Assembly (NCBI RefSeq): GCF_014395785.1
Contig: NZ_CP060713.1
Coordinates: forward strand, 3,376,501-3,440,500
Direction of reading: 5' to 3'
Length of the DNA: 64,000 nucleotides
Origin: Nocardioides mesophilus
GTDB lineage: Bacteria; Actinomycetota; Actinomycetes; Propionibacteriales; Nocardioidaceae
The notes under the pieces were generated by a model that had not been told where the DNA came from, searched no databases, and saw only the letters and a program-made list of their open reading frames with translations. Position numbers and translations under genes: made by a program. This document shows positions 11,876 through 30,980 of this stretch, piece after piece. Within the stretch, counting starts at the first letter, position 1. The number at the start of each line of letters is the position of its first letter.

Positions 11876-11917
11876 ATGCGAACCGACATTCTTGTACGCA
11901 CGCGACGCGGCTGCTGA
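11876..11917 (+). CDS. ilvB operon leader peptide (Ile-Leu-Val attenuator)
   Basis: Thirteen codons: MRTDILVRTRRGC then TGA. The central Ile-Leu-Val is written ATT-CTT-GTA, unusual codons for such GC-rich DNA. It precedes an intrinsic terminator (11944-11977) and the acetolactate synthase gene. Leader peptides with an MRT..ILV pattern before ilvB are known in actinobacteria as ribosome-mediated attenuators. When any of the three charged tRNAs is scarce, the ribosome would stall here and favour antitermination. The peptide itself probably has no function. Confidence 0.82.
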   Translation: MRTDILVRTRRGC

Positions 11918-11943: not shown

Positions 11944-11977
11944 CCCCTCGATTGCCCACCGGGCCGAGGGGTTTTTT
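11944..11977 (+). terminator. Attenuator terminator of the ilvBNC operon
   Basis: CCCCTCG (11944-11950) pairs with CGAGGGG (11965-11971), and GCCC pairs with GGGC inside, with a 3-base bulge ATT. The stem is followed directly by T6 (11972-11977). It lies between the leader peptide and ilvB, 45 bases before the ilvB start, so it can only act on the leader transcript. Confidence 0.85.
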
Positions 11978-27917: not shown

Positions 27918-29021
27918 TCAGCCGTCCAGCACGACGACCCGCACCGGGTCGTCCGCGGTGTTGGTGAAGCCGCCGCGGTTCCACGCCGGCTCCACCGGCT
28001 GCACCCGGCCGGTCGCGTCGTGCGCCCTCGCGCGCAGCAGGTGCTCGCCGGGCCCGGCCTCCCAGTCGAGGGTGAACTCCCGCCAGGCCCAGCGGTGCTC
28101 GTCCGGCCCGAGGGCCGCGTCGCGCCAGGTCGCGCCGCCGTCGGTGCTGACCTCCACCCGGGTGACCCCGCCCCAGCCGGACCAGGCCCGCCCGCGCAGC
28201 CGCACCGGGCCCGGCCGCAGGACCCGGTCCCGGCTCATGAAGTCGGGATCGCCCGGCGGCATCAGCAGCGCCCGGGGCTCGATCCGGGTGACCGGCACAC
28301 CTTCGTCGTCGGGCTGCTGACGCAGCCGGTAGGCGGCGTTCTGGTAGCCGTCGAAGGGATGGTCGATGACGGTGATGCTGCGCAGCCACTTGACGTGCGC
28401 CATGCCGTACCACCCGGGGACCACGAGCCGGGCCGGGAAGCCGTGCTGGGCCGGCAGCGGTGCGCCGTTCATCGCGAAGGCGATCAGTACGTCGTCCGCG
28501 TCGGCCTCCGCCAGGCTCAGGCCGCGCGCGTAGTCCTGCTCGACGCCGCGCTCGAAGCCGTGGTCGTGGCCGGTGAACACGACGTCCACCGCGGAGCCGG
28601 TCGGCGCCGCGTCGGCGAGCAGGTCCCGCAGCGGCACCCCGGTCCACTCCGCCGTACCGACCGCGCCGGTGAGCCACGGCTGGCTGACCGGGCGCGGCGA
28701 GAGCCCCGCCCGGCCGTTGCCGGCGCACTCCAGGGTGACGCGCACGGTCCGGCTCGGCATCGCGGTCAGGTCCGCCATCGACAGGGAGATCGGATGCTCC
28801 ACCTCGCCGCCGAGGTCCAGGCGCCAGGTGGCGGCGTCGACGTCGGGCACGTCGTAGTGGGTCAGCACGTAGTGCAGCCCGGGCGGCGTGAGCTCCGCGC
28901 GCAGCATCTCCAGCGGCATCGCGTGGTTGCGGCCGGCCAGCCGCAGCTCGTCGATCCCGATGCCCTCACCCGGCTCGGCCACCCGTCCGGGCCTGCTGAC
29001 CCGCTCCACCGGGATCGTCAT
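27918..29021 (-). CDS. Sulfite oxidase-type molybdopterin oxidoreductase
   Basis: A 367-residue protein: an oxidoreductase molybdopterin-binding domain (about 45-215) followed by a Mo-co dimerisation domain (about 245-360). The cofactor-ligating Cys lies in VRVTLECAGNGRAGLSPRPV (about residue 100). PARLVVPGWYGMAHVKWLRS and NAAYRLRQ are typical of SUOX/SorA relatives. No signal peptide or haem domain is present, so the electron acceptor is unknown and the enzyme is probably cytosolic. GGAGA lies 8 bases upstream of ATG 29021. It is divergent from the cimA leader. Confidence 0.9.
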   Translation of the reverse strand: MTIPVERVSRPGRVAEPGEGIGIDELRLAGRNHAMPLEMLRAELTPPGLHYVLTHYDVPDVDAATWRLDLGGEVEHPISLSMADLTAMPSRTVRVTLECAGNGRAGLSPRPVSQPWLTGAVGTAEWTGVPLRDLLADAAPTGSAVDVVFTGHDHGFERGVEQDYARGLSLAEADADDVLIAFAMNGAPLPAQHGFPARLVVPGWYGMAHVKWLRSITVIDHPFDGYQNAAYRLRQQPDDEGVPVTRIEPRALLMPPGDPDFMSRDRVLRPGPVRLRGRAWSGWGGVTRVEVSTDGGATWRDAALGPDEHRWAWREFTLDWEAGPGEHLLRARAHDATGRVQPVEPAWNRGGFTNTADDPVRVVVLDG

Positions 29022-29185
29022 GCGGGTCTCTCCTTCGTGTCCGGGTGGGCCGCTATTCCGGCGGCCCTGCGGCCTGTCTACTCCCGCGCACCGGGCCCGG
29101 CAACCGCCCGTCCGGGGCAGTGCGGAGCAGACCGGATCGTGGGACCGGGTTCCGGATCGCGGACAACGGTGGCAGACTCGACGCC

Positions 29186-29212
29186 GTGCAGCAGCAGATC
29201 ATTATCAGCTAG
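29186..29212 (+). CDS. cimA leader peptide (MQQQIIIS, isoleucine attenuator)
   Basis: Eight codons from GTG 29186 to TAG 29210-29212: Met-Gln-Gln-Gln-Ile-Ile-Ile-Ser, with Ile encoded ATC-ATT-ATC. A -10-like CAGACT lies 7 bases before the GTG, so the transcript probably starts at the leader. A strong terminator at 29237-29266 follows, then the citramalate synthase gene. Three consecutive Ile codons before an Ile-pathway gene are a textbook ribosome-attenuation arrangement: Ile starvation would stall the ribosome and prevent the terminator from forming. Confidence 0.8.
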   Translation: MQQQIIIS

Positions 29213-29236
29213 CGCGTGCGGCCCGGCCGGACGCGC

Positions 29237-29266
29237 AGACCTCTCGTGACCACGGGAGGTCTTTTT
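29237..29266 (+). terminator. Attenuator terminator upstream of cimA
   Basis: AGACCTC (29237-29243) pairs with GAGGTCT (29256-29262) and CGTG with CACG inside, with one T-G wobble, giving a 12-bp stem around a 2-base loop and ending in T5 (29262-29266). A smaller stem GCGCGT/ACGCGC (29212-29217 with 29231-29236) starts in the leader stop codon and directly abuts it; it could be the competing structure. Confidence 0.85.
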
Positions 29267-29318
29267 GTTGCCCGACCGCGCCGCGCTGACACGACCGGAT
29301 CCAGACAAGGGACCACAG

Positions 29319-30980
29319 ATGAGCACCGACCCCCGTCACCCCCGGGACCGCGTGGACGCCGCCTTCCACGTCTACGACACGACGCTGCGCGACGGTGCGC
29401 AGCAGGAGGGGCTGAACCTCTCCGTCGCCGACAAGCTGGCGATCGCGCGGCAGCTCGACGACCTCGGGGTCGGCTACATCGAGGGCGGCTGGCCGGGGGC
29501 CAACCCCAAGGACACCGAGTTCTTCCGCCGCGCCCGGACCGAGCTGGACCTCCGGCACGCGACGCTGGCCGCCTTCGGTGCCACCCGGCGGGCCGGGGTG
29601 CCGGCGGCGGACGACCCGCTGGTGGCCGCGCTGCGTGAGTCGGGTGCCTCGGTGGTCACGCTGGTGGCGAAGTCACACGACCGGCACGTCGAGCTGGCGC
29701 TGCGGACCACGCTGGCGGAGAACCTGGCGATGGTCCGGGACACCGTGAGCCACCTGCGCGCGGAGGGCCAGCGGGTCTTCCTCGACGCCGAGCACTTCTT
29801 CGACGGCTACCGCGCCAACCGCGACTACGCGCTCGAGGTGCTGCGCACCGCGGCCGAGGCCGGCGCGGAGGTGGTCGCGCTCTGCGACACCAACGGCGGC
29901 ATGCTCCCGTCGTGGATCGCCGACGTGGTCGACGACGTGCTGAGCACCGGCGTCCGGGTCGGCATCCACTGCCACAACGACACCGGCTGCGCCGTCGCCA
30001 ACACCCTCGCCGCCGTGGACGCCGGCGCCACCCACGTGCAGGGCACCCTCAACGGCTACGGCGAGCGCACCGGGAACGCCGACCTGGTCTCGGTGGTGGC
30101 CAACCTCGAGCTGAAGCTGGACCGGCCGGTGCTGCCCACCGGTGCGCTGCGCGAGGCCACCCGGATCGCGCACGCGGTCGCCGAGGTCACCAACGTCCCG
30201 CCCGCCTCGCGGCAGCCGTACGTCGGGGTGAGCGCCTTCGCGCACAAGGCCGGCCTGCACGCCAGCGCGATCAAGGTCGACCCCAACCTCTACCAGCACC
30301 TCGACCCGGTCCGGGTCGGCAACGACATGAGGCTGCTGGTCTCCGACATGGCCGGGCGCGCGTCGATCCACCTGAAGAGCCGCGAGCTCGGCTTCGACCT
30401 CACCGACAGCCGGGAGGACCAGGACCTGGTGGCCCGGGTGACCGCCCGCGTCAAGGACCTGGAGTCGCGGGGCTTCACCTTCGAGGCGGCGGACGCCTCC
30501 TTCGAGCTGCTGCTCGTCGAGGAGGTGGAGGGCCGGCGCCCGTCGTACTTCGACGTGGAGTCCTGGCGCGTCATCACCGACTCGCGGCCGGGGGGCGAGG
30601 CGCTCTCCGAGGCAACGGTCAAGCTGCACGCCGGCGGCGCGCGGATCCTGACCACCGGCGAGGGCAACGGGCCGGTGAACGCCCTCGACCACGCGCTGCG
30701 CGAGGCGATCGGGCAGGCCTACCCGGAGGTCGCGAAGTTCGAGCTGATCGACTACAAGGTCCGGATCCTCGACCAGGGCCACGGCACCGACGCGGTCACC
30801 CGGGTGCTCATCGAGACCACGGACGGGGAGTCCTCGTGGGTGACGGTCGGGGTCGGGGCCAACGTGATCGAGGCGTCCTGGGGCGCGCTGGTCGACGGGG
30901 TCACCTTCGGGCTGCGCCGCCACGGAGAGCAGCCGGAGCAGCAGCCGGGCGCGCTCGAGCCGGAAGCCGCGCGCGGCTAG
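29319..30980 (+). CDS. cimA: (R)-citramalate synthase
   Basis: A 553-residue member of the 2-isopropylmalate/homocitrate synthase family. The TIM barrel (about 10-290) has VYDTTLRDGAQQEGLNLSVA, the metal site GIHCHNDTGCAVANTLAAV, and GTLNGYGERTGNADLVSVVA. The C-terminal LeuA_dimer regulatory domain (about 405-535) can bind an end product, usually Ile. It condenses pyruvate with acetyl-CoA; LeuCD and LeuB, both in this window, then yield 2-oxobutyrate for Ile. AAGGGA precedes ATG 29319. Length and the DTTLRDGAQ opening favour cimA over leuA, and the Ile leader supports it. Confidence 0.93.
   Translation: MSTDPRHPRDRVDAAFHVYDTTLRDGAQQEGLNLSVADKLAIARQLDDLGVGYIEGGWPGANPKDTEFFRRARTELDLRHATLAAFGATRRAGVPAADDPLVAALRESGASVVTLVAKSHDRHVELALRTTLAENLAMVRDTVSHLRAEGQRVFLDAEHFFDGYRANRDYALEVLRTAAEAGAEVVALCDTNGGMLPSWIADVVDDVLSTGVRVGIHCHNDTGCAVANTLAAVDAGATHVQGTLNGYGERTGNADLVSVVANLELKLDRPVLPTGALREATRIAHAVAEVTNVPPASRQPYVGVSAFAHKAGLHASAIKVDPNLYQHLDPVRVGNDMRLLVSDMAGRASIHLKSRELGFDLTDSREDQDLVARVTARVKDLESRGFTFEAADASFELLLVEEVEGRRPSYFDVESWRVITDSRPGGEALSEATVKLHAGGARILTTGEGNGPVNALDHALREAIGQAYPEVAKFELIDYKVRILDQGHGTDAVTRVLIETTDGESSWVTVGVGANVIEASWGALVDGVTFGLRRHGEQPEQQPGALEPEAARG

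Follow-up and report, generated by a model that had tools for sequence, protein, structure and literature searches.

Does the region before cimA let the isoleucine supply control this gene in Nocardioides mesophilus? The gene lies on the plus strand at positions 29319 to 30980 of the window (the whole stretch of DNA analyzed here, 64,000 nucleotides). The initial annotation named it cimA and read the sequence before it as an Ile attenuator. The name holds, as the product matches the citramalate synthase model TIGR00977 at 643.8 bits (cut-off, 450). The regulatory reading is supported by the joint conservation of the parts (90 of 102 related regions) and by codons that match the pathway. Judged from sequence, the element is very likely an Ile-sensing, ribosome-mediated transcription attenuator. 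The genome also contains a threonine deaminase gene (TIGR01127, 441.9 bits; cut-off, 378.75), so CimA need not be the sole source of 2-oxobutyrate. With two possible entries to this compound, regulation of cimA would adjust one of them.

Leader, stem 2, and terminator in the window

The leader ORF was found at 29186 to 29212 on the plus strand. It encodes MQQQIIIS (GTG-CAG-CAG-CAG-ATC-ATT-ATC-AGC-TAG), with the GTG start codon at 29186 to 29188 and the TAG stop codon at 29210 to 29212. It is the eight-codon frame with three consecutive Ile codons that had been annotated. These putative regulatory codons are ATC ATT ATC at 29198 to 29206. A -10-like box had been placed 7 bases 5' of the GTG, and CAGACT is indeed located there (29173 to 29178). 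With the preceding TGG it forms an extended -10-like box, TGG-CAGACT, at 29170 to 29178 on the plus strand. A strict scan for consensus -10 and -35 sequences upstream of cimA retrieved no sigma-70 promoter; the -10 assignment is made because the box, and its spacing from the start codon, are conserved across the family. The leader mRNA is probably leaderless, because the start codon lies only 7 nt past the box. Transcription probably starts at or adjoining the leader start codon.

Two hairpins were predicted behind the leader. Stem 2 (GCGCGT...ACGCGC; 29212 to 29236, plus strand) lies between the leader stop and the terminator and adjoins the latter. It was absent from the initial annotation and was found by folding; covariation and folds with the ribosome in place also bear on it. 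The putative intrinsic terminator occupies 29237 to 29266 on the plus strand and was identified from the fold and the family alignment. Its hairpin spans 29237 to 29262, and its T-run spans 29262 to 29266. A terminator 24 bases past the leader stop had been annotated, and this position was confirmed. The stem had been given as 12 bp; the fold contains 11 pairs and a 4-nt loop. The fold of 29186 to 29270 had an energy of -41.9 kcal/mol (z score, -4.53), and none of 200 shuffled sequences was as low. A terminator of the neighboring gene was ruled out, since the upstream gene (27918 to 29021) is on the opposite strand.

As in attenuators of the ilvB and leuS type, a predicted intrinsic terminator stands between leader and gene, and an apparently leaderless short frame follows closely behind a -10-like box. 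Across the whole window, Rfam models at the gathering score matched no family except tRNA, twice. The leader region gave five sub-threshold Rfam matches, all to microRNA or Caulobacter sRNA models.

Conservation in the family Nocardioidaceae

We searched 120 genomes of the same family for CimA and obtained some match in 116. We excluded distant homologues, as well as matches in which the CimA N terminus was missing. This left 102 upstream regions, namely, that of the window and 101 others. Of 184 loci, 168 were placed by tblastn; coordinates served to place those of the remaining 16 that are family regions. Of 80 further named loci, 71 were scanned and read by eye only, and they enter no count. 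Leader picking preferred starts behind a -10-like box, and one terminator was set by hand.

The upstream alignment proposed in the initial annotation was run. Leader, stem 2, and terminator were present together in 90 of the 102 regions, and these 90 represent 18 of the 20 genera. In 87 regions, we recovered a short frame that has an Ile core (II, IxI, LI, FI, etc.) and is followed by a hairpin. Three more regions (L106, L167, and L174) have the same layout with one Ile each and were added by hand. Three consecutive Ile codons occur in 56 of the 90 leaders, at least two Ile codons occur in 86, and none lacks Ile. Loss of the Ile codons with the hairpin kept had been named as the case that would refute the reading; it is only approached, in the four leaders with a single Ile (L106, L167, L174, and L176). 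The commonest leader length is nine residues (43 of 87), as in MQHRTIIIR. Since an Ile frame and a stop signal are kept in most relatives, Ile supply very probably gates cimA.

The spacing of the parts is also conserved. The distance from the last Ile codon to GCGCG is constant in 87 of the 90 aligned leaders. Zero to 1 unpaired nt separates stem 2 from the terminator in 85 of the 90, and 2 nt do so in the other 5. The stem-2 loop varies widely among these rows. Four or more T's directly follow the terminator hairpin in 88 of 90 rows; L114 and L154 are the two not caught by this pattern. A [CT]ANNNT box ends 6 to 8 nt 5' of the start codon in 86 of the 90 leaders (7 nt in 49, 6 nt in 36, and 8 nt in 1), with start codons that were partly picked using the box itself. 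The box is preceded by TGG in 53 of the 90 and by GTC in 22. TTGA was found between -60 and -20 in only 5 of 90. When frames were anchored on the -10-like box and Ile was ignored, 84 of the 102 regions gave a frame. The spacing was 6 to 7 nt in 83 of these 84, which points to leaderless translation of the leader.

The remaining 12 regions contain neither leader nor terminator. A T-run of at least 4 was present among them (-200 to +60) in L088 only, and no terminator stem was seen before it. Four of these 12 cimA genes (L088, L132, L144, and L145) lie directly behind an aminotransferase-type gene. In L088 this gene encodes a branched-chain aminotransferase (NF009897, 491.2 bits; cut-off, 307), and by eye the genes before cimA in the other three resemble it. 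At the level of sequence, the following are established for the family: the leader frame, the Ile codons, the predicted terminator and stem 2, the distances between these parts, and the fact that they occur or are missing together.

Chance controls and covariation

Chance was assessed on frames of 6 to 24 codons within 200 nt upstream of cimA, which were not selected by Ile. Frames with Ile-Ile-Ile were present in 56 of the 102 regions and in none of the regions in each of 20 dinucleotide-shuffled sets. The next homotripeptide was Ala, in 3 of 102 regions, and all others occurred in at most 2. The minus strand of the 102 regions contained no Ile-Ile-Ile frame. Among the 84 frames anchored on the -10-like box, 83 contain at least one Ile and 79 contain at least two. 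Ile makes up 27% of their residues after the start. The leader with its terminator is far above chance.

Across the 90 leaders, the second and third Ile codons are ATC in some rows and ATT in others, which is the pattern of a translated run. The check for compensatory changes, also proposed in the initial annotation, gave two-sided changes above the shuffled level, mostly in stem 2 and fewer in the terminator. They affect 7 of 10 pairs in stem 2 and 3 of 10 in the terminator. In both helices together, 113 cells changed on both sides (shuffled mean, 31.8), and none of 500 shuffles was as high; this control leans, since related rows may exceed shuffles without structure. Two other measures are less striking. 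Pairs with a two-sided change numbered 10 against 7.4 expected, a value that 6 of 500 shuffles reach and that one slid control gives likewise. Pair types numbered 31 against 27.5 expected, and 19 of 500 shuffles reach this.

Covariance model and occurrence in the class Actinomycetes

A covariance model, R1, was built from the 90 family rows. In the genome of the window its best match was the cimA leader (E value, 3.1e-17), followed by a site before leuS (0.0099) and by two at 0.49 and 1.17. R1 matched at an E value of at most 0.01 in 159 of 246 genomes of the class. The best 30 loci, that of the window included, all have cimA downstream. The listings of R1 and of cimA comprised 150 rows each. 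For 109 of the listed R1 matches, the genome also has a listed cimA; 100 of these matches lie 36 to 236 nt upstream of cimA on the same strand. Five of the other 9 were fetched, and all 5 lie before ilvB. Of 20 further places chosen by hand, 12 lie before cimA, 7 before ilvB, and 1 (L225) before leuA. TIGR00977 matched at an E value of at most 1e-100 in 195 of the 246 genomes. Among the 150 listed cimA genomes, 50 had no listed R1 match, so absence or divergence of the element is common too.

Leaders of ilvB, leuS, and leuA

The window contains a second leader, before ilvB, that was used for comparison only. It encodes MRTDILVRTRRGC (11876 to 11917, plus strand), and its terminator lies at 11944 to 11977 on the plus strand. 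This leader has one Ile, one Leu, and one Val codon in a row, followed by a stem and a terminator in a similar layout. Of 30 fetched ilvB loci in the family, 28 gave a leader. The other two were L250, where an ilvB leader with a shorter T-run was seen by eye, and L267, where none was seen. The 90 cimA leaders contain 244 Ile, 23 Leu, and 60 Val among 883 residues, and the 28 ilvB leaders contain 15, 59, and 42 among 305. The cimA leaders are Ile-rich and the ilvB leaders are Leu/Val-rich, as the pathway predicts. This comparison is somewhat biased, given that Ile guided part of the choice of cimA rows and that any I/L/V pair qualified an ilvB row; the Ile count in the frames anchored on the -10-like box is free of that bias. 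The cimA leaders contain consecutive codons for the end product of their own pathway. The gap between stem and terminator in the ilvB leaders is 0 to 1 nt in 22 of 28 and 2 to 3 nt in 6. Their computed median stem is 14 bp in the stalled state and 3 bp with the ribosome at the stop.

The site before leuS (L185, G000:C1:555686-555770) is on the minus strand of the genome of the window and has a stem and a terminator. By eye, its leader reads MRKSLLLIRPH followed by a stop. The gene matched TIGR00396 at 582 bits (cut-off, 548.4). The R1 match in L225 has a Leu-rich leader that reads MKHLLLIESARH by eye, and it stands before a leuA-type gene. The best NCBIfam matches of this partial gene are 2-isopropylmalate synthase.

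Ribosome positions and the proposed mechanism

The 90 leaders were folded with the ribosome in two positions. We assumed that its front edge reaches 12 nt past the first base of the A site. A stem 2 of 5 bp or more was computed for 89 of 90 leaders when the ribosome waits on the codon that opens the last Ile run. With the ribosome at the leader stop, 6 of 90 kept it. The median number of stem-2 pairs was 10 bp in the stalled state versus 0 at the stop. The contrast persists over assumed front edges of 9 to 16 nt; at a 6-bp threshold, the stalled and stop states gave 90 versus 8 leaders with a 9-nt edge and 67 versus 1 with a 16-nt edge. In these folds the hairpin after the codons would have its 5' arm masked by a ribosome at the stop. 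Ribosome-dependent folding of stem 2 is thus a computed property of the leaders. The terminator was intact in the minimum-energy fold of 90 of 90 and 89 of 90 leaders in the two states. The switch is therefore not predicted by equilibrium folding.

We propose the following sequence of events. Transcription would begin on or beside the leader start codon, after which a ribosome would translate MQQQIIIS. When Ile-tRNA is ample, the ribosome would reach the TAG, with its front edge over the 5' arm of stem 2. With stem 2 masked, the terminator would form alone and transcription would end before cimA. When Ile-tRNA is scarce, the ribosome would stall as the first Ile codon enters the A site, and the edge of the ribosome would stop just short of stem 2. 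The free stem 2 would then fold and lie flush with the terminator base, at a distance of 0 to 1 unpaired nt. There it would make it harder for the terminator stem to close fully inside the RNA exit channel, and the polymerase would read through into cimA. By analogy, stalling likely raises readthrough.

A terminator closes its lowest pairs while they are still within the RNA exit channel. We infer from this that a flush GC-rich helix could not be there too. This steric step is a tentative proposal, somewhat short of probable. A general actinobacterial design, in which a ribosome-gated guard hairpin flush on the terminator acts sterically and no competing antiterminator is involved, is conjectural to the same degree. 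It is possible, at that same tentative level, that cimA (Ile), ilvB (Leu/Val/Ile), and perhaps leuS and leuA share this design with the codons swapped.

Alternative explanations

The same Ile attenuator could possibly work, with a probability that we also place below even, through a classical antiterminator. Stem 2 would extend a few pairs into the base of the terminator, or some of the stem-2 region would pair transiently with one arm of the terminator. Helix enumeration and the ribosome-state folds retrieved no strong competing antiterminator in the 90 leaders, so the way in which a stall is passed on is a matter of inference. In the equilibrium folds, no antiterminator that shares bases with the terminator and excludes it, as in trp-type leaders, was seen; 0 to 2 unpaired nt lie between the hairpins, and no pairs are shared. 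Competing helices do occur. Helices of at least 4 bp from the stem-2 region onto the 3' arm of the terminator were found in 90 of 90 leaders (median, -10.8 kcal/mol). Helices onto the 5' arm were found in 77 of 90 (median over all 90, -8.2 kcal/mol), and 48 of these 77 begin in the inner 5' arm of stem 2. These are rough helix energies, and on the same rough scale they are far weaker than the terminator (-19.9) or stem 2 (-17.7). Short helices are also expected anyway in GC-rich sequence. They may provide a weak competitor for the terminator arms. In some close relatives TG follows stem 2, and UAG could pair with CUG; the window has an A.A mismatch at this extension site. Published models for Corynebacterium ilvBNC support the classical arrangement, as far as the parts of these sources considered here go. 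One (PMC11857589) has overlapping hairpins, and another (PMC10272879) pairs the loop of hairpin 1 with the 3' shoulder of the terminator.

It is unlikely that the tandem hairpins jointly strengthen termination while the leader peptide tunes it in the opposite direction or has no effect. Both hairpins do fold together in the stalled state, and hairpin clusters are reported, in the part of PMC8355165 considered, to induce intrinsic termination. An Ile-making gene would then go off in Ile shortage, and the pathway-matched codons and the fixed codon-to-stem spacing would be left unexplained. A little less likely still is an effect of the leader by way of mRNA decay, Rho, or ribosome reinitiation and not by way of the intrinsic terminator. 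Such modes exist for other uORFs, but the hairpin and T-run are conserved beside the leader and absent where the leader is absent. It is very improbable that the second hairpin (3' arm GGAGGT, U-run, NTG) hides the ribosome binding site of a longer cimA: the TTG at 29265 of the window is in frame with cimA and 84 of 102 regions have an NTG behind the U-run, but this NTG is in frame in only 30 of the 84, as expected by chance, and an upstream cimA start behind a Shine-Dalgarno-hiding hairpin was rejected on this count.

Comparison with known systems

In enterobacterial trp, his, and ilv leaders, the position of the ribosome on end-product codons sets transcription of the pathway genes. The cimA element is alike in this control by ribosome position. 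The enterobacterial leaders differ from it in having an antiterminator and a terminator that exclude each other and in starting translation from a Shine-Dalgarno sequence. T-boxes respond to the signal proposed for the cimA leader, uncharged tRNA. The cimA leader differs from them in that no Rfam covariance model matched it at the gathering score. In the part of PMC12452182 considered, T-boxes are joined to the COG0119 group (isopropylmalate, homocitrate, and citramalate synthases) in Bacillota.

The closest known systems are actinobacterial. As described in the parts of the sources considered, the ilvB attenuators (Seliverstov 2005, PMC1262725; Mtb ilvB1, PMC13236596; PMC10272879, PMC11857589, and PMC8079986) share with the cimA element a short frame that contains branched-chain codons, a hairpin behind these codons, an intrinsic terminator, and a biosynthetic gene. 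The family ilvB leaders, that of the window included, have the two-hairpin layout of the cimA leader. The cimA element differs from the ilvB attenuators in its target and in codons that are almost only Ile. Published ilvB models, in the parts considered, name a competing antiterminator, whereas none that is strong was found for the cimA leader. The leuS leader attenuators of Streptomyces, in the same part of PMC1262725, have a relative before leuS in the genome of the window. They differ from the cimA element in their Leu codons and their tRNA-synthetase target.

The examined sections of PMC1262725 describe ilvB, leuA, leuS, trp, and cys leaders in Actinobacteria and report that other pathways gave no conserved structures. 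In those sections, codon substitutions before Streptomyces coelicolor ilvB were reportedly without effect, which counts against the Ile-attenuator reading. In the part of PMC13236596 considered, replacement of LVVI by AAAA in the mycobacterial ilvB1 leader abolished induction, which counts for it. The model proposed there has the ribosome at the stop masking an antiterminator. Eight leaders in Streptomyces lividans, including IlvL, are described in the part of PMC8079986 considered.

The initial annotation knew of no described Ile leader before cimA, and our literature search, which covered papers open without subscription, retrieved none among the papers listed. The term cimA does not occur in PMC13236596, PMC10272879, or the main text of PMC8079986, and it is not mentioned in the examined sections of PMC1262725 and PMC11857589. 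Neither cimA nor citramalate occurs in PMC11109978, and citramalate does not occur in PMC2965389 or PMC4833913.

The cimA leader would give the citramalate route to Ile its own end-product sensor in a large part of the class. This sensor would be separate from the general branched-chain ilvB leader, which predicts which leader answers which amino acid. The flush hairpin, if true, would explain the attenuator parts that are seemingly missing in Actinobacteria in the examined sections of PMC1262725. It would also be a regulatory part with its specificity set by the codons alone. The element may be of use in engineering Isoleucine and 2-oxobutyrate production in actinobacteria.

Additional observations

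Bases reading GTTGCC or similar often follow the T-run, in the window (29267 to 29272) and by eye in many relatives. They are common to cimA and ilvB leaders and are not an in-frame start (30 of 84).

Eight cimA regions that lack the leader lie outside aminotransferase operons, in four genera, and may be viewed as natural deletion mutants. Three regions (L098, L101, and L115) keep the -10-like box without leader or terminator. In three (L159, L166, and L173), which have no leader, TAGACT stands a short way upstream of a cimA start codon. L100 and L142 have no leader and neither the -10-like box nor the TAGACT pattern.

Longer cimA leaders with Met and Ile codons were retrieved from L228, L229, and L230. 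All three belong to one genus (g45), with genomes of 5.8 to 11 Mb. One such leader reads MLSFAMIIGSRRAGPQ by eye. The stem-2 loop in this genus is long.
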